NCBI GenBank assembly: GCA_018433765.1
Contig: JAHDQO010000001.1
Location: 496,001 to 560,000 of the forward strand
From: Tissierellales bacterium
Lineage (GTDB): Bacteria > Bacillota > Clostridia > Tissierellales > Sedimentibacteraceae
DNA length: 64,000 nt
Direction of reading: 5' to 3'
Under the pieces are notes generated by a model. The model made no database searches. It was not told the origin of the DNA and worked only from the letters and a program-made list of their open reading frames with translations. The position numbers were made by a program, and so were the translations under genes. Of this stretch, positions 51,559-61,303 are shown in pieces (positions within the stretch are counted from its first letter, which is position 1; each line of letters starts with the position of its first letter).

Positions 51559-51981
51559 ATGAAAAATTTTAGGTATAAATTAGCAGAGTTTATGAATGGA
51601 AGATACGGAATAGATCAATTATATAAATTTTCTCTTAAATTATGTTTTGTTTTGTTAATTGTTAATGTCTTTATTAGTTCTTCTATTGTATCTTCAGTTA
51701 TATATAAAATAATTTGGATTATTTTTATTTGGATGGGTTATCGAACATTTTCTAAAAAAATATATGCAAGGCAAAAAGAAAACCAAATATTTATAAGTAT
51801 TGAAAAAAAAGCAAAAAAGAAAATCTCCTTAACAATTAGGAGATTCAAAGAAATTAAAACGCATCGATTTCGTAAATGCCCTAATTGTAAAACCGTTCTT
51901 CGCTTGAAACGAAGGAAAGGCAAACTTATAGTAACATGTCCAAAGTGCAATAGCAAAATTAAAGTACATATTTTATTCTAG
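51559..51981 (+). CDS. Small membrane protein with C-terminal zinc ribbon
   Basis: A 140-residue protein with two hydrophobic segments (about residues 28-67: LCFVLLIVNVFISSSIVSSV, IIWIIFIWMGY), a very basic middle and a zinc ribbon (CPNCKTVLRLKRRKGKLIVT then CPKCNSK) at the C-terminus. It is the third gene of the DUF5685-DnaJ set. ATG 51559 follows AAAAGGAG by 8 bases; a GTG at 51550 overlaps that site. Function unknown; membrane tethering of the other two proteins is possible. Confidence 0.75.
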   Translation: MKNFRYKLAEFMNGRYGIDQLYKFSLKLCFVLLIVNVFISSSIVSSVIYKIIWIIFIWMGYRTFSKKIYARQKENQIFISIEKKAKKKISLTIRRFKEIKTHRFRKCPNCKTVLRLKRRKGKLIVTCPKCNSKIKVHILF

Positions 51982-52060
51982 CAAGCAGTTGAAATTCATG
52001 TAAACCAAATTATAATATATTTATAAACTATATAAAAATACATATCAATTATAGCATGTA

Positions 52061-52094
52061 CCCTCAGATTAATGTCTGAGGGATTTTTATTTTT
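52061..52094 (+). terminator. Strong intrinsic terminator
   Basis: CCCTCAGA (52061-52068) pairs with TCTGAGGG (52075-52082), followed by ATTTTTATTTTT. It ends the DUF5685-DnaJ operon. Confidence 0.9.
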
Positions 52095-52186
52095 AAAAAT
52101 CTTAAGTCAACTTTACTATTTATTAGTATTTATTAGGTTTTTATACATTATTTCTAAATTGTATAATATATATTGGTCCAAATTTG

Positions 52187-52221
52187 TTCCAACATGATTC
52201 ATTTTTGAATCAAGTTTGGAA
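52187..52221 (+). promoter_or_regulatory. Upstream activator-type dyad for the nhaC promoter
   Basis: TTCCAACATGATTCA (52187-52201) and TGAATCAAGTTTGGAA (52206-52221) form an imperfect inverted repeat centred about 85 bases upstream of the sigma-54 promoter. Distance and symmetry fit an enhancer site for a bacterial enhancer-binding protein, most simply the one encoded at 54214. Confidence 0.6.
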
Positions 52222-52280
52222 TATATTGTATAAACTGCTTTTAATAGCAGTAAAAATTCCACAATTTTACGTCTTTTAAA

Positions 52281-52296
52281 TGGCATAAAATTTGCA
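52281..52296 (+). promoter_or_regulatory. Sigma-54 promoter (-24/-12) of the nhaC-like gene
   Basis: TGGCATAAAATTTGCA matches the TGGCAC-N5-TTGCA consensus at all positions but one, with correct GG-to-GC spacing. The predicted start lies near 52307, leaving about a 40-base leader before the ATG at 52347. Confidence 0.82.
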
Positions 52297-52346
52297 TCTT
52301 TTATATAAATGTATTAATATATATTCATCAGAAGGAGGATATGGAA

Positions 52347-53966
52347 ATGAATTTTAACAAGAAACACTTTTTTGCTGTGATTACGTTGGTTATAGTACTT
52401 AGCATGTTGTTAACTGGCGTAGTATTTGCAGATGAAGCAGAAGAAACACTTCCAACTTTATACTCAACTGGTTGGGCATTGCTTCCACCAATCATTGCTA
52501 TTATTTTGGCATTGATTACTAAAGAGGTTTACAGTTCACTCTTTATAGGTATTATAGTAGGTGCTTTACTTGTGGCAAACGGAAATCCTGTTAACGCAGT
52601 AACTACAATGGTTAATGATGGATTTATATCCAGCATAGCCAGTTCTTGGAATGTAGGTATTCTTATGTTCCTTGTTATTCTTGGAATTATAGTAGCGGTC
52701 ATGAACAAAGCCGGTGGCTCAAAAGCTTATGGTGAATGGGCTAAGAAGAAAATTAAAACAAGGAAAGGTGCTATGGGTGCTACCTTTGGTCTTGGTTGCT
52801 TAATTTTCGTAGATGACTATTTTAACTGTTTGACAGTTGGTAGCGTTATGAGACCTGTAGCAGATGGACACAACATTTCAAGAGCTAAATTAGCATACCT
52901 GATAGATGCTACTGCTGCTCCAATATGTATGATTGCACCAATTTCATCATGGGCAGCTGCAGTATCAAGTAATGTAGAAGTTTATAACGGTTTAGACTTA
53001 TTTATCAGAGCTATTCCTTATAACTTTTATTCACTACTTACTATAGTAATGATTTTGTTTATTATATTTACCGGTATAGATTACGGTCCAATGAGGAAGC
53101 ATGAAAAAAATGCCAAAGAAAAAGGTGATTTATTTACAACAGGTGATCGACCATTCGAAAATGCAGTTCCTGAAGCAAGTTCAGATAAAGGTGGAGTTAT
53201 CGACTTGGTTCTTCCTGTAGTTATCCTTATTGTATTTTGTGTAATAGGTATGATTTATACAGGCGGTTTCTTTTCAGGTGAATCATTTATAGACGCTTTT
53301 GCAAATTCAGATGCTGCAATTGGTCTTTCAACTGGATCCTTGGTATCATTGATTTTAATATTTATATGGATTGTTGCTAGAAGAGTTTTATCATTCAAAG
53401 ATTTTATGGAGTGTATTACTGCAGGTTTTAATGCTATGGTTCCTCCAATTCTTATTTTAACTTTTGCGTGGACATTGTCATCAATGACAGGAGCATTAGG
53501 AGCTGCTCCTTTTGTAGCAGACCTTGTAGAGCATAGTGCAGAAGGATTTAAAATGTTCCTACCTGCAATTATCTTTGTAGTTGCTTGTTTCCTTGCATTT
53601 GCTACAGGAACATCATGGGGAACTTTTGGAATACTTATTCCTATCGTTGTAAATTTAGGAAGTTCTATATCAGAAAACATGCTTATTATAGGAATTTCTG
53701 CTTGTCTTGCAGGTGCTGTTTGTGGAGATCACTGTTCACCTATATCAGATACTACAATTATGGCTTCCTCAGGTGCTCAGTGCAATCATATTAATCACGT
53801 ATCAACGCAGCTGCCTTATGCTTTAACAGTAGCAGGTGTTTCTTTTGTGACATATATTATTGCTGGTTTTCTACAAAGTGTAGTAGCACTGCCAATAGGT
53901 ATTGTTTTAATGCTTGGTACATTATATATAGTTCGTACAATAAATAAATCAAAAGCTACAGCTTAG
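52347..53966 (+). CDS. NhaC-family Na+/H+ antiporter-like transporter
   Basis: A 539-residue polytopic protein. A first hydrophobic helix (FFAVITLVIVLSMLLTGVVF) is followed by a soluble stretch and about 11 further helices. Family blocks include GWALLPPIIAIILALITKEV, FVDDYFNCLTVGSVMRPVAD (the charged core), IDATAAPICMIAPISSWAAA, FATGTSWGTFGILIP and GAVCGDHCSPISDTTIMAS. Members exchange Na+ and H+ or amino-acid-type solutes such as malate/lactate. The sigma-54 promoter and the adjacent Kdd-like activator suggest a role in amino acid uptake or exchange. ATG 52347 lies 8 bases after AAGGAGG. Confidence 0.88.
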   Translation: MNFNKKHFFAVITLVIVLSMLLTGVVFADEAEETLPTLYSTGWALLPPIIAIILALITKEVYSSLFIGIIVGALLVANGNPVNAVTTMVNDGFISSIASSWNVGILMFLVILGIIVAVMNKAGGSKAYGEWAKKKIKTRKGAMGATFGLGCLIFVDDYFNCLTVGSVMRPVADGHNISRAKLAYLIDATAAPICMIAPISSWAAAVSSNVEVYNGLDLFIRAIPYNFYSLLTIVMILFIIFTGIDYGPMRKHEKNAKEKGDLFTTGDRPFENAVPEASSDKGGVIDLVLPVVILIVFCVIGMIYTGGFFSGESFIDAFANSDAAIGLSTGSLVSLILIFIWIVARRVLSFKDFMECITAGFNAMVPPILILTFAWTLSSMTGALGAAPFVADLVEHSAEGFKMFLPAIIFVVACFLAFATGTSWGTFGILIPIVVNLGSSISENMLIIGISACLAGAVCGDHCSPISDTTIMASSGAQCNHINHVSTQLPYALTVAGVSFVTYIIAGFLQSVVALPIGIVLMLGTLYIVRTINKSKATA

Positions 53967-54006
53967 GTAAGATTATTTTAGTAATAAATTAAAGATTAGT
54001 AATTAA

Positions 54007-54040
54007 AGTTTAGCAGGTATTTACCTGTTAAACTTTTTTT
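54007..54040 (+). terminator. Strong intrinsic terminator
   Basis: AGTTTAGCAGGTA (54007-54019) pairs with TACCTGTTAAACT (54022-54034), followed by TTTTTT. It ends the nhaC-like unit and separates it from the activator gene. Confidence 0.9.
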
Positions 54041-54096: not shown

Positions 54097-54125
54097 TTGA
54101 AAATTAGTCATATGAATGATACAAT
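54097..54125 (+). promoter_or_regulatory. Sigma-70-type promoter of the sigma-54 activator gene
   Basis: TTGAAA (54097-54102), 17 bases, TACAAT (54120-54125). The activator gene therefore has its own housekeeping promoter, unlike its presumed target. Confidence 0.65.
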
Positions 54126-54213
54126 ATAGAAGAAGCTTCCAAGATTACAAATGAATACAAATTCTATATAATGCAGAATTGAGGTATTTGGATAAAATAT
54201 GAAAGGTGAAAGT

Positions 54214-56343
54214 ATGATATATATTGGAATGAATAGAGTTGTTAATCCTAATTATAGCACACCTGTAACTACTAGCAAAATAGATAATAAAACAAATTTC
54301 AGTAGTGAAGTCCGTATAAATGTTGAATTTATTCACATTAAAGGAGATAGTTTTATTCAAACATGTTATAAATATCATAGAAATAATAAAAAGATAGGAG
54401 AAGAAATCCTTAATATAATAAATACAAGCAGTATGTTATGCAGCCAGCAATTTAGCGAGGGCGGGTTAATAGTTGGAACTGTTGAAGAAGTAGAAAATGA
54501 TTCTATAATGCTTAACGGATATAAAATTAAAGAAGGGGACAAAGTATTATGTGATACATTACTTACAGCTGTTGCAATACATTTAGATGAAATTTTAGAA
54601 ATTAATTGTGAACTTGGAGATATATATTGCAAAGGTTATGCTGTAGCATATGAAAATTGTATATTATCAAAAATAAAACCTACTTTAGATATTAGAGCTG
54701 CTGCATTAGTATTTGATAAATTTTGCATGTCAAAGAATGCTAATGAAGCAGCAATTGCTAAAAAATCTAAATCAATTTGTTTAATTACAAAGGATCCCAT
54801 TAATACATATATATATTTAAAAGCTATTAAAATAAATAATCCTTATGCTGAAAAGTTTTTTATAATAATGGATAATAGTGTGAAAAATAAATATAAAGAT
54901 ATTGAAAAAACACAAATCTTTAATGAAATAAATAAAATAACATTTTTGGATATAGGAAAACCTTTGGAGTCTTATAATAAACTTATAAAAATCAATGAAT
55001 TCCATGAAGTTGATTATGTTTTACTAACTGAAGATATAAGTGGAGGTGAATTTTTAGCTTTTTTATTATGTAAAGAAAATGGAAATATATTTTTTTCAAC
55101 TATAAAAAACAATTATATTAATGTTACATTAAATGAGAATATAAAGGACGATAAGATAGTAAACAGATTTTCGTTTTATACTCTTGAACCTCAGCTTTGT
55201 AAGTTTGCTTTACTGCTTGCAGAACAGATACAAGAAGGGATAAATAAATATTATAAACTATTAAGTAGTAAACAAAATTCAAGCAGAAATTATCGTGAAG
55301 GACAGTATATAGATGGTGGATGTAACATAGAAGGTTTTGTTTTTAAAAGTAAAATCATGGCTAATAAAGTTAAACAGCTTGTTAATGTTGCAAAATATGA
55401 CTGTAATGTAATTATAGAAGGTGAAACTGGTACAGGTAAAGAAATGGCAATGGAAATAATTCATTCTAATAGTATAAGAGCTGAAGAGCCATGTATAAAA
55501 ATAAACTGTGCTGCCATACAGGAGAGCTTAGCTGAATCAGAATTCTTTGGATATGAAAAAGGTTCATTTACAGGTGCTTTAGCTAATGGAAAAGAAGGAT
55601 ATTTTTCTATGGCTAATAACGGTATTTTGTTTCTTGATGAAATTGATAAATTATCAATTAGTATACAATCTAAGCTGCTTAGAGTTATTCAAGAAAATTC
55701 TTTTTACAAAGTTGGTGGGACAGAGCAAATTAATGTTAATGTACGAATAGTTTGTGCAAGTAACAAGAGTTTAAAAAAGTTAGTAGCTCAAGGTAAATTT
55801 CGAGAGGATTTGTTTTATAGACTAAACATTGCTACTGTTTATATACCACCACTTAAGGGTAGAGTTGATGATATTGAGTGTCTTACTAAATATTTTTTAG
55901 AAAAATATAATAATAAATACGGAACTAATAAATCTTTTGATCATAAAACTTTGAATATGATGCAGAAGTATGATTGGCCTGGAAATGTTAGAGAACTAGA
56001 AAATACTGTTCATAGATTGGTTATTGCAGGTGAAGAAGAATTTATAAGTACTGAAATTCTGACGGAAACTATGGGAGAACAAAGAATAAGAGGTAAGCTA
56101 TACAACTTAAATGGTAAATTTGATAATGAGAAATTAGATTTTAATGATTTAGTTAAAGAATTAGAAAAACAAATTATTAAATTTGCACTTAATAAGTGTG
56201 GAACAACAAGGAAAGCCGCAGAATATCTCAATATGTCACATACTACCTTAATTAGAAAGAAAAATAATTATGGAATACACCAAGAGTATCAACTTAATAA
56301 AACTATAGACTACAGAAATACCAATTCAGTAAATAGTCAATAA
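54214..56343 (+). CDS. Sigma-54-dependent activator with a 3,5-diaminohexanoate-dehydrogenase-like sensor
   Basis: A 709-residue regulator. Residues about 1-340 resemble L-erythro-3,5-diaminohexanoate dehydrogenase (Kdd) of lysine fermentation: GMNRVVNPN then KID near the start, GGLIVGTVEEVENDS, YKIKEGDKV, LDEILEIN, KGYAVAYENCI. The glycine-rich NAD loop expected after this is missing (KSICLITKDPINTY), so it is probably a sensor, not an enzyme. The AAA+ domain follows: Walker A IIEGETGTGKEMAME, GYEKGSFTGALANG (sigma-54 contact loop, GSFTGA), Walker B NGILFLDEID and the RVDDIECLTKYFL region. The C-terminal Fis-type helix-turn-helix is GTTRKAAEYLNMSHTTLIRK. Start 54214 has AAGGTG close by; 54199 is possible. 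Likely activates the nhaC-like promoter. Confidence 0.85.
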   Translation: MIYIGMNRVVNPNYSTPVTTSKIDNKTNFSSEVRINVEFIHIKGDSFIQTCYKYHRNNKKIGEEILNIINTSSMLCSQQFSEGGLIVGTVEEVENDSIMLNGYKIKEGDKVLCDTLLTAVAIHLDEILEINCELGDIYCKGYAVAYENCILSKIKPTLDIRAAALVFDKFCMSKNANEAAIAKKSKSICLITKDPINTYIYLKAIKINNPYAEKFFIIMDNSVKNKYKDIEKTQIFNEINKITFLDIGKPLESYNKLIKINEFHEVDYVLLTEDISGGEFLAFLLCKENGNIFFSTIKNNYINVTLNENIKDDKIVNRFSFYTLEPQLCKFALLLAEQIQEGINKYYKLLSSKQNSSRNYREGQYIDGGCNIEGFVFKSKIMANKVKQLVNVAKYDCNVIIEGETGTGKEMAMEIIHSNSIRAEEPCIKINCAAIQESLAESEFFGYEKGSFTGALANGKEGYFSMANNGILFLDEIDKLSISIQSKLLRVIQENSFYKVGGTEQINVNVRIVCASNKSLKKLVAQGKFREDLFYRLNIATVYIPPLKGRVDDIECLTKYFLEKYNNKYGTNKSFDHKTLNMMQKYDWPGNVRELENTVHRLVIAGEEEFISTEILTETMGEQRIRGKLYNLNGKFDNEKLDFNDLVKELEKQIIKFALNKCGTTRKAAEYLNMSHTTLIRKKNNYGIHQEYQLNKTIDYRNTNSVNSQ

Positions 56344-56369: not shown

Positions 56370-56403
56370 AAAGACGGCGATAGTAAGTAATCGCCGCCTT
56401 TCA
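56370..56403. terminator. Bidirectional intrinsic terminator
   Basis: AAAGACGGCGAT (56370-56381) pairs with ATCGCCGCCTTT (56390-56401) with one mismatch. It lies between the convergent activator and rhodanese genes. Confidence 0.8.
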
Positions 56404-57864: not shown

Positions 57865-57943
57865 ATAAAGTAAATTTTTTAAGAGTGCATTATTGTAATC
57901 AATTAAATGCATTCTTTAAAATGAAATAATGGAGGTTAATTTT

Positions 57944-58348
57944 ATGGAAAAAAGAAAGTATGTGGGTAAAATTGATGATTTGCCGCAAATTGATGTATCA
58001 GAATTCATACAAAATGCTGAAAAGCGTATTGTATTTGGTCATGATGAAACATGGGATAGTCATGTAATGCGTAATTTTAAATTAAGTCCAGGTTCTGTTG
58101 CACCACCAAATAAACACTCTTGGCCTCATCAAGCTTTATGCATTGGTGGAGAAGGAATATTTAAAATTGGAGATACTGATTACGAGATTTCTCAAGGTTC
58201 GTACATGTATGTTCCAGGAAATGTAGAGCATACATTTTGGAATACTTCTAAAACAGAGAAACTTAATATTATTTGTATAGTTCCTAATAAAGGTGATGTA
58301 AATCCTCTTACTGCTACTGAAGATCAGAAGAAATATTCATTTTGTTAA
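57944..58348 (+). CDS. Cupin-domain protein
   Basis: A 134-residue single-domain cupin. Motif 1 is about PPNKHSWPHQALCIGGEGIFKI (metal ligands His at the HSWPH pair and a Glu), and motif 2 is about YMYVPGNVEHTFWN with His. Single cupins can be enzymes, lyases or sensors of small acids. It is the first gene ahead of the TRAP transporter and may act on the imported solute. ATG 57944 follows GGAGG by about 8 bases; an earlier in-frame ATG overlaps that site. Confidence 0.85.
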   Translation: MEKRKYVGKIDDLPQIDVSEFIQNAEKRIVFGHDETWDSHVMRNFKLSPGSVAPPNKHSWPHQALCIGGEGIFKIGDTDYEISQGSYMYVPGNVEHTFWNTSKTEKLNIICIVPNKGDVNPLTATEDQKKYSFC

Positions 58349-58387
58349 TTATAAGTAAATAATATTTTAAAAAAAGGAAGGTACAAG

Positions 58388-59407
58388 ATGAAAAAGAGTT
58401 TAAAGTTATTGATTGTATTTTTAGTTTTAATATTATTATTAGTTGGATGTAATTCTTCACAAAACAATTCTGAAAACGATGTTACAACTCCGGTAAAGGC
58501 GAAACATTTAAAATTTAGTTCAGCTGTTTCAGAAAATTCAACTTGGCAGTATGGAGCTGAAAAATTTGCAGAATTGATAGAAGAGAGAACAAATGGAAGA
58601 TATGTAATAGACATATATACCAGTGATCAATTAACTTCAGGTAATCAAATAAAAGCTCTTGAAGCTTTACAAATGGGTACTTGTGATTTTGACATTAGAT
58701 CAATTTTACTTTATACAAATTTAGATGTTAGGTTTACTAGTATTATGATGCCGTGGTTAGTTCCTAGTTTTGATGCAGCTGATGAAGCACTTGCAGGACC
58801 TGGTGGTGAAGCTATTGCTAACTTGGTAAATGAGAATGGTATGAAATTTATTGCTTTTGGAGAATCTGGATTTCGTCAGTTAACTAATAATGTAAGAGCA
58901 ATAGAATCACCAGAGGATCTTAATGGTATCAAGCTTCGTGTTCCAGCTTTAAATATGTATTTTACTATGTTTAATGAATTAGGAGCAAACCCTACTACTA
59001 TGAACATGGGTGAAGTTTTTGCAAGTATTCAGCAAGCAGTTATAGATGGACAAGAAAATCCTGTAGATGTTATTAATTCATTCAAAATTAATGAAGTGTG
59101 TAAATATATGACATTGTGGAACTGTTCATATGATCCTATAGTAATGAGTGCTAGTCCACATACATGGGAAAAACTTTCAGAAGAAGATCAAAAAATCTTT
59201 GCTCAAGCAGGAAAAGAAGCTATGGAATATCAGAAGCAAAAATCTCGTGAATCATATAATAAACTTGTTGAAGAATTAGGTAAAACTATGGAAATCAATG
59301 AATTAACTGATGAACAAATTAAAACTTTTAGAGAAGCAGTTCAACCTGTCTATGATGAGTGGGTTCCACAAATTGGTGAAGACATGATGTCTTATTTTGG
59401 ATTATAA
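58388..59407 (+). CDS. TRAP transporter solute-binding lipoprotein (DctP family)
   Basis: A 339-residue lipoprotein (signal LLIVFLVLILLLVGC, Cys about residue 21). The mature part shows DctP features: LKFSSAVSENSTWQYGAEKF, RYVIDIYTSDQLTSGNQ, LNGIKLRVPALNMYF (the Arg that binds the substrate carboxylate), NMGEVFASIQQAVIDGQENP and WNCSYDPIVMSASPHTW. It delivers an organic acid to the DctQM membrane proteins. A hairpin downstream probably sets its higher level relative to DctQ/M. Confidence 0.92.
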   Translation: MKKSLKLLIVFLVLILLLVGCNSSQNNSENDVTTPVKAKHLKFSSAVSENSTWQYGAEKFAELIEERTNGRYVIDIYTSDQLTSGNQIKALEALQMGTCDFDIRSILLYTNLDVRFTSIMMPWLVPSFDAADEALAGPGGEAIANLVNENGMKFIAFGESGFRQLTNNVRAIESPEDLNGIKLRVPALNMYFTMFNELGANPTTMNMGEVFASIQQAVIDGQENPVDVINSFKINEVCKYMTLWNCSYDPIVMSASPHTWEKLSEEDQKIFAQAGKEAMEYQKQKSRESYNKLVEELGKTMEINELTDEQIKTFREAVQPVYDEWVPQIGEDMMSYFGL

Positions 59408-59429
59408 AAGTTGAAAAAACAATTACATA

Positions 59430-59470
59430 ATTTGCGGATAATAAAAATTTATATCCGCAAATCCTTTTAT
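59430..59470 (+). terminator. Hairpin between dctP and dctQ, partial terminator
   Basis: ATTTGCGGATA (59430-59440) pairs with TATCCGCAAAT (59452-59462), followed by CCTTTTATTTTT. Partial termination or 3' protection here would favour the binding protein over the permease subunits, a common pattern in transporter operons. Confidence 0.75.
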
Positions 59471-59508
59471 TTTTATATTTAAATATTCTCAAAGTGGAGG
59501 TTATATTT

Positions 59509-59988
59509 ATGATTACAAAATTTTTTGGGAGAATATTAGATTATACAGAAGAAATAATTATAGGAATCAGTATGTTTGTTATGATTGCAATAAATTTTGG
59601 AAATATTGTTGCTAGATACGTATTTAGTGTTTCGTGGGCTTTTTCTGAAGAGATATTAATTATTCTTTTTGTATATAATAGTTTGATAGGTGCTTCTATG
59701 GCTTTTAAAAGGAAAAAGCATACAGGTTTTACTGCATTAACAGATAGACTGCCAAAGAAATGTCAGAAAGTAGTTAAAATTATGGTTATAGTCGGTACTA
59801 TTACAATGATGGCAATCTTATTTTATTTTGGAACCAAAATGTGTTTAAATCAAGCTAAATATGGATTAAAGACATCAGCACTTAGTATTCCTGAATATTT
59901 AGCAGGTGCATCTATTCCAATATCAGCTATTATGATTGTTATTCGTATGATTCAAAATTTAGTTAAGGAATTACGTAGTTCCAATTAA
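59509..59988 (+). CDS. TRAP transporter small permease (DctQ family)
   Basis: A 159-residue protein with four transmembrane helices and the DctQ segment NIVARYVFSVSWAFSEEILI, followed by MAFKRKKHTGFTALTDRLP. It forms the small membrane subunit with DctM. ATG 59509 is 8-9 bases after GTGGAGG (59494-59500). Confidence 0.9.
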   Translation: MITKFFGRILDYTEEIIIGISMFVMIAINFGNIVARYVFSVSWAFSEEILIILFVYNSLIGASMAFKRKKHTGFTALTDRLPKKCQKVVKIMVIVGTITMMAILFYFGTKMCLNQAKYGLKTSALSIPEYLAGASIPISAIMIVIRMIQNLVKELRSSN

Positions 59989-60025
59989 AAAATATTAAAT
60001 TAATAAAAGAAAGGAGCATTCTATT

Positions 60026-61303
60026 TTGGGTTTTGTAGTATTTGGACTTTTTTTATTGTTTGTAATTATGGGAATGCCAATAGCTATTTGTCTTGGACTG
60101 TCTTCTATTATCACAATGATTTTCTATGATATGACATTGGCTGCTTTTCCAAGCATTATATATTCTGGTACTGGTAAATTTAGCTTGCTTGCAATTCCAT
60201 TCTTTGTATTGGCAGGAATTATAATGGAATATGCTGGAATATCAAGAAGATTAATTGTTTTTGCTCGTACGTTTGTAGGTCATATACGAAGTGGATTGGC
60301 TATAGTCACTGTTGTAGTTTCTGCGTTTTTTGCAGCTATTTCAGGTTCGGGTCCAGCAACAGTAGCTTCTTTAGGACCAATATTAGTTCCAGCAATGAAA
60401 GATGCAGGTTATGATAAAGGATGGTCTGCTGCATTGATAGCAAATGCTGGTAATATGGGTATTATTATTCCCCCTAGTATAGTTCTTGTAATATATGGTG
60501 TTCTAGCTGAGGTTTCAATTACGAAACTATTTATTGCAGGTATAATTCCTGGTATTATATTTGGAGCTGCTTTATGCATTATGGCACTCATTTCACTTAG
60601 TAAAAAGAAAGATATTATGGTTAAAACAAAAGCTTCTCTAAGAGCGAAACTTAAAGCAGCTATTGATGCATTTTGGGGGCTTATGTCGCCTATTATTATA
60701 TTAGGTGGTATTTACTGTGGTGTAGTTACACCAACAGAGGCTGCTGGTCTTGCAGCTGTCTATGGCTTGTTTGTAGGTATATTTATTTATAAAGAGATTA
60801 AACTTAAAGATTTTAGGAAAATTTTTGTAGATGCATCTATTTCTTCAGCATCGGTTATGTTTATAGTTGCAAATGCAAGTTTATTTTCTTGGCTGTTGAC
60901 AAGTAGTGGTATAGCAACTAATATTGCGAACAGCATGATTGCTTTAACAAGTAACAAGATTATTATATTATTACTTATAAATATCATGTTACTGGTTGCA
61001 GGTTGTTTTGTAGATGCTGCATCGGCATTGTATATATTTATTCCAATTTTGCTACCAGTTTTAAAGATTTTAGATGTTAATCTTGTAGCATTTGGTATAT
61101 TTGCTACAATGAATTTAGCTATAGGTATGGCTACTCCTCCAGTCGGAGTTAATCTATTTGTAGCATGCAATGTATCAAATGTATCGCTAAGCGAAATTTC
61201 CCAACAAACATTAAGATTTTTGTTGGTATCTTTGATAGTACTATTATTAGTTACATATATTCCACAAATCTCACTTTTCTTACCTGAAATGATGGGATTG
61301 TAG
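60026..61303 (+). CDS. TRAP transporter large permease (DctM family)
   Basis: A 425-residue membrane protein with about 12 helices. Recognisable DctM blocks are FVVFGLFLLFVIMGMPIAIC, YSGTGKFSLLAIPFFVLAGI, AISGSGPATVASLGPILVP, GMATPPVGVNLFVACNVSN. It is the Na+-coupled transport subunit for the carboxylate bound by DctP. The start is TTG 60026 with AAAGGAG 9 bases upstream. The OsmC gene follows 33 bases later and is probably in the same operon. Confidence 0.92.
   Translation: MGFVVFGLFLLFVIMGMPIAICLGLSSIITMIFYDMTLAAFPSIIYSGTGKFSLLAIPFFVLAGIIMEYAGISRRLIVFARTFVGHIRSGLAIVTVVVSAFFAAISGSGPATVASLGPILVPAMKDAGYDKGWSAALIANAGNMGIIIPPSIVLVIYGVLAEVSITKLFIAGIIPGIIFGAALCIMALISLSKKKDIMVKTKASLRAKLKAAIDAFWGLMSPIIILGGIYCGVVTPTEAAGLAAVYGLFVGIFIYKEIKLKDFRKIFVDASISSASVMFIVANASLFSWLLTSSGIATNIANSMIALTSNKIIILLLINIMLLVAGCFVDAASALYIFIPILLPVLKILDVNLVAFGIFATMNLAIGMATPPVGVNLFVACNVSNVSLSEISQQTLRFLLVSLIVLLLVTYIPQISLFLPEMMGL

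Follow-up and report, generated by a model that had tools for sequence, protein, structure and literature searches.

In this study, we analyzed a stretch of 64,000 nucleotides from the genome of a Tissierellales bacterium, referred to here as the window, which contains an NhaC-like transporter gene followed by a gene for a sigma-54 activator. As shown in Table 1, a terminator-like hairpin, an imperfect dyad and a sigma-54 promoter box precede the transporter gene, and a further hairpin and a sigma-70-like promoter lie between the two genes. ATG 52347 was used as the start of the transporter gene. By reading, it was a better fit to the ribosome-binding site than ATG 52341, and it gives a protein of 539 aa, the same length as both of the 85%-identical orthologues described below.

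Table 1. Features of the transporter-activator locus (positions in the window).
Feature	Position	Strand	Basis
Terminator-like hairpin ending the preceding transcription unit	52061..52082	+	9-pair stem, then T-rich tail
Imperfect dyad, 35 bp; probable enhancer (UAS) region	52187..52221	.	Sequence and pattern search
Core UAS, GATTCA-N4-TGAATC	52196..52211	.	10/10 for the GANNCA-N4-TGNNTC layout
Sigma-54 -24/-12 promoter, TGGCATAAAATTTGCA	52281..52296	+	Exact pattern match
lysW-like gene (NhaC superfamily, PF03553)	52347..53966	+	ORF and family match
Strong terminator-like hairpin in the transporter/activator gap	54005..54036	+	14 pairs, T tail
Sigma-70-like promoter of the activator (TTGAAA-17-TACAAT, TG before -10)	54097..54125	+	Consensus match only
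Sigma-54 activator with Kdd-like N-terminal domain	54199..56343	+	Domain searches
Terminator-like hairpin behind the activator	56375..56396	+	Hairpin scan

An earlier note on this DNA had predicted a two-gene regulon. This was not borne out. The strong terminator behind the transporter gene and the separate sigma-70-like promoter indicate that the activator is its own transcription unit. No sigma-54 box was found before the activator, where the best matrix score in the interval was 3.0 compared to 23.1 for the transporter promoter. As judged from these signals, sigma-54 has one predicted target gene at this locus, and the activator is transcribed separately. The region 57929-61303, 1.6 kb past the activator, holds a cupin gene and an operon for a TRAP transporter, both read from translations, and the pattern search of the window found no exact sigma-54 box there.

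A sigma-54 promoter and a candidate enhancer upstream of the transporter gene

The pattern TGGCAYR-N4-TTGCW had one exact match in the window, the box 45 bp upstream of the transporter gene (shuffle mean 0.05). The own genome (4.19 Mb) contained 31 exact matches compared to 0 for the reversed pattern, which indicates that this genome uses sigma-54 promoters. The scoring matrix was built from 21 own sites (scores 20.0-25.8) and did not include the 9 minus-strand ones. The -24/-12 box proposed in the earlier note was thus recovered, and the genome-wide count supports its proposal of sigma-54 control of the transporter.

The dyad proposed upstream of this box was also confirmed. A two-arm pattern allowing up to 3 mismatches matched once in the window and never in 100 shuffles, the pattern having been derived from the window sequence itself. 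The dyad holds a perfect core which, with its flanks, reads TGATTCA-TTTT-TGAATCA (52195-52212) and occurs twice in the own genome. It had been placed about 85 bases upstream; its location upstream held and the figure was loose, as 69 bp separate the core from the box. The distance from the core centre to the inferred start site is ~104 bp, so that in position the core agrees with an enhancer, expected ~100 bp upstream of a promoter. Two helical turns further upstream (52175-52190), a second, weak copy of the motif reached just 6/10 by reading and was not counted.

The transporter belongs to a clade linked to lysine riboswitches

Lysine riboswitches are specific for lysine. We examined the relationship of the transporter, a PF03553 member, to transporters under such riboswitches. 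In a tree of 35 proteins, it grouped within a clade of the NhaC superfamily known as LysW, the name given to riboswitch-linked NhaC proteins (PMC5584792). A transporter match at E 1e-120 was present in 50 of 249 genomes of the order. An Rfam scan found the lysine riboswitch RF00168 just upstream in 17 of 29 orthologue loci (14/19 and 3/10). Two of these orthologues are 85% identical to the window transporter and are its sister group in the tree (support 100/99), and both carry the riboswitch. These results give independent support to the lysine link suggested in the earlier note.

The same scan found no lysine riboswitch before the window transporter, so that the window gene lacks the linkage that marks LysW. 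A riboswitch remnant was rejected, as nothing was found even at E 10 over 51850-52450. The two 85% orthologues had no activator among the neighbouring genes inspected, and no sigma-54 box was found before them. Their best matrix score was 10.3, compared to 20.0-25.8 for the 21 own matrix sites, and a degenerate box was therefore rejected. The earlier note had held that a lack of box conservation in relatives would refute its proposal, and in both closest orthologues the box was indeed absent. Since its place is taken there by a lysine-sensing RNA, the link of the transporter to lysine is strengthened. Folding of the region in one 85% orthologue showed a terminator that does not overlap the aptamer closing stem, and an upstream strand could compete with this terminator. 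By this model, the riboswitch is apparently of the OFF type.

The own genome has two lysine riboswitches of its own. One precedes kal (contig C23:100478-100662; 2440-2840 of locus L227), an arrangement that was already known (PMC5584792). The second precedes dapA-/dapB-like genes, named by reading (contig C7:244886-245035; L179).

The activator carries a decayed Kdd-like domain

Domain searches divided the activator into a Kdd-like region (residues 9-311), an AAA+ domain (382-547) and a Fis-type HTH (~647-693). The match to Sigma54_activat (PF00158) had an E value of 7.6e-63, and HTH_50 and HTH_8 were also matched. No PAS domain was matched in the activator. Its loop reads GSFTGA instead of GAFTGA, a variant listed as permissive (PMC6615313).

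The N-terminus matched PDB 7dl3 (E 2.8e-4), the NCBIfam family Lys_ferment_KDD (NF052381; E 1.4e-20) and a profile built from 35 Kdd enzymes (E 1.7e-28, residues 9-311). These matches support the Kdd-like character of the sensor that had been proposed. The N-terminal 300 residues are thus homologous to Kdd, the 3,5-diaminohexanoate dehydrogenase that acts in lysine fermentation. However, the protein differs from the enzyme: its score of 74 bits falls short of the cut-off (200), the glycine-rich NAD motif is lost, and AAA+ and HTH domains are fused to it; on the equivalog cut-off and the NAD motif alike, it falls outside the Kdd enzymes. Of 112 near-invariant Kdd residues, the activator kept 31, fewer than any other of the 12 activators of this kind (others 43-69). 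Together with the loss of the NAD motif, this indicates a decayed enzyme, whose ligand may differ from that of Kdd. From its sequence, the domain is most likely a decayed 3,5-diaminohexanoate dehydrogenase with a sensor role. Structure prediction of the domain gave a mean pLDDT of 37 (two sequences).

The earlier note had also pointed out that this is the only sigma-54 activator in the window. It is indeed the sole Sigma54_activat match there, but as evidence of pairing this is weak, because the own genome has 43 such matches, ~39 of them strong (~38 besides the window activator). Many of these 43 matches and the 31 exact boxes are paired as neighbours. Kdd-like matches in the own genome were confined to the activator and the real kdd.

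Kdd-domain activators in other genomes share a candidate enhancer layout

We searched for similar activators in other genomes. A Kdd-like match at E 1e-12 was present in 82 of the 249 genomes of the order, and five genomes, the own one included, had one of activator length. A class-wide sample of 391 genomes added seven activator-length proteins in six genomes, giving 12 loci in total. At these loci, gene names given without a family search were read from translations. Loci L107, L108 and L220 have a second kdd, kce and a TRAP transporter beside the activator, and kal in two of the three by the ORFs called; in L108 the contig ends within the TRAP gene, whose identity was judged from its first part. 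The activator neighbours kal-kce-TRAP at L109, kdd and kam genes at L224-L226, kdd and kal at L222, and a kdd at L221. At L110, it precedes an NhaC gene, and gcvPA/gcvPB-like genes are also present. At L223, the activator and an NhaC/ArcD-like gene that has an exact box lie in divergent orientation, and this activator is the closest AAA+ relative of the window activator among the 11 others (50-52% identity). The pairing of this activator with a lysW orthologue was found in no other genome of the order and in none of the class-wide sample.

Near-copies of the window core occur in pairs at L107, L108, L110 and L220. The variants GAACCA-N4-TGGTTC at L221 and GACCCA-N4-TGGCTC at L223 led to the general layout GANNCA-N4-TGNNTC. 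This layout was scored over the 250 bp before the box against 1000 shuffles at eight loci; L220 was judged by eye, and L224-L226, where no box could be placed, were unscored. The p values were 0.001 for the window, 0.005 for L107, 0.009 for L108, 0.001 for L110, 0.001 for L221 and 0.005 for L223. L109 (0.095) and L222 (0.57) did not fit. Six of the eight promoters associated with Kdd-domain activators, the window one included, thus had the layout at p<=0.01, and these values are descriptive only, because the layout was chosen after the sequences were seen. The same scoring of 30 own exact boxes out of 31, all oriented by strand, gave 10/10 for the window promoter alone, and the next best was one with 9.

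A search for the core with the box in a public genome collection gave 14 stretches, mostly from Bacillales. Another AAA+ sigma-54-type activator was present in 7 of the 14, and a Kdd-like one in none. The idea that the dyad motif is exclusive to Kdd-domain activators was rejected on this result. In Cohnella kolymensis (L238, 1054-1155), the core motif and a sigma-54 box lie before kal-kce, directly after kdd.

The lysine-fermentation genes of the own genome have a different motif

The own genome encodes kdd, kamA, kamD, kamE, kce and kal, each above its NCBIfam cut-off. The kdd gene opens a cluster with kamA, kamD, kamE and kce, and kal lies elsewhere. An exact sigma-54 box is also present at this cluster. 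We found TGCC-N8-GGCA in 14 of 20 kdd-linked promoters, including the own one, compared to 0.65 expected; three duplicate loci (L111-L113) and all kdd loci whose best box score was below 15 had been dropped. This motif, shared by kdd promoters of the order (for example, L033 10068-10274), is a probable enhancer. It is absent from the window promoter. Control of the main lysine-fermentation operon by the window activator was rejected, since the own kdd promoter carries TGCC-N8-GGCA instead.

Another genome of the set (G007; L155, 5581-6328) has a LysW-like gene (48-50%) with an exact sigma-54 box and no riboswitch. Two copies of TGCC-N8-GGCA lie 261-282 bp from this box, an arrangement found in 3% of simulated sequences, and are only suggestive. 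This gene is perhaps a second, independent capture.

Discussion

From the box, the dyad, the domain make-up of the activator, the riboswitches of the orthologues and the lysine-fermentation genes elsewhere in the genome, all of which are seen in the sequences, we infer the following mechanism. The LysW-type gene of the NhaC superfamily at 52347 would be transcribed alone, by sigma-54 RNA polymerase waiting at 52281-52296. The Kdd-like domain of the activator, as the probable sensor, would bind lysine or an intermediate of lysine fermentation. The neighbouring activator would then bind the dyad at 52187-52221 (core 52196-52211), loop to the promoter and drive open-complex formation, leading to transcription of the transporter gene. 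When lysine is available, the transporter may take it up or exchange it for kam/kdd fermentation. The apparently OFF-type lysine riboswitch of the relatives would have been replaced here by this activator-dependent switch. The closest relatives have the riboswitch and the window has the sigma-54 promoter and the Kdd-like activator, so that lysine-linked control of the transporter gene seems to have been rewired, with sigma-54 and a Kdd-like sensor appearing to replace the RNA. A single-gene, lysine-linked LysW-type transporter under sigma-54 and the neighbouring Kdd-like activator, with the riboswitch replaced, is the best explanation overall, and we consider it moderately probable.

The other readings differ in which part of this mechanism they change. 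A chance or inactive box, with the gene driven by a sigma-70 promoter, is highly improbable. The AT-rich upstream region does contain sigma-70-like hexamers, about as many as in shuffles, but the count of 31 exact boxes to none, the place of the box close before the gene and the usual distance of the dyad argue for a working sigma-54 promoter. The dyad could also be bound by another sigma-54 activator of the own genome, for example one of PAS type, with the Kdd-like activator acting elsewhere. The many strong activators of the genome, the separate transcription of activator and transporter, and the occurrence of the core with the box beside non-Kdd activators in other bacteria would all allow this. 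We nevertheless regard it as unlikely, because the activator adjoins the transporter, the same layout precedes promoters beside other Kdd-domain activators, and none of the 29 other own boxes examined scores 10.

The function of the transporter allows two further readings. It may be a genuine Na+/H+ antiporter, serving pH or sodium control while lysine is fermented, with lysine itself not among its substrates. This would suit its membership of the NhaC superfamily, and a 2024 review, which states that the function of the riboswitch-linked NhaC of C. difficile is unknown, names both lysine transport and pH control (PMC11477304). However, two lysine-linked controls are attached to the same clade, the riboswitch in the relatives and the Kdd-like sensor here, and the antiporter reading is rather doubtful. 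Alternatively, the transporter may carry another amino acid or product sensed by the activator, such as ornithine, beta-lysine or 3,5-diaminohexanoate. The sensor domain is decayed, Kdd-domain activators lie beside kdd-kal-kce-TRAP clusters and a gcvPA/gcvPB-like cluster, and an NhaC gene is placed under OrdR in ornithine clusters (PMC6615313). The closest orthologues are under lysine riboswitches, which argues against such a substrate and makes it improbable.

We compared the preferred reading, sigma-54 control of a lysine-linked transporter by the Kdd-like activator, with known systems. LysW (COG1757) under the lysine riboswitch belongs to the same transporter clade, but the window gene has a sigma-54 box and a dyad in place of the RNA. 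In the OrdR regulon (ord-ortBA-oraSEF-orr-nhaC), an operon for amino-acid fermentation that includes nhaC is likewise predicted to be under a sigma-54 activator; this case differs in that the amino acid is ornithine and nhaC is the last gene of the operon (PMC6615313). KamR of Bacillus thuringiensis is a sigma-54 activator of the gene for lysine 2,3-aminomutase. It has a PAS sensor and acts on kamA (PMC4428206), whereas the window activator has no PAS match and its predicted target is a transporter. Our literature search found no description of Kdd-domain activators. Nie et al. (2019) sorted clostridial sigma-54 activators into 39 groups, with sensor domains that include PAS, GAF, PrpR_N, ACT and others, none of them Kdd-like, and neither 'lysine' nor 'Kdd' appears in the main text of that paper (PMC6615313).

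The new element, as read from the genomes, would be a combination of known parts that amounts to a testable swap from riboswitch to sigma-54 regulation. An evolutionary reading, to which we give slightly less than even weight, is that a class of activators recruited a lysine-fermentation dehydrogenase as sensor and that one of them captured a lysine transporter from its riboswitch, turning a lysine-off response into a lysine- or product-on response. Kdd-domain activators offer a tractable case in which an enzyme has become a transcriptional sensor. Whether riboswitch-linked NhaC proteins (LysW) carry lysine or manage pH was called open in the 2024 review (PMC11477304). With the same gene apparently placed under a sensor that descends from an enzyme of lysine fermentation, this question of LysW function becomes directly testable.
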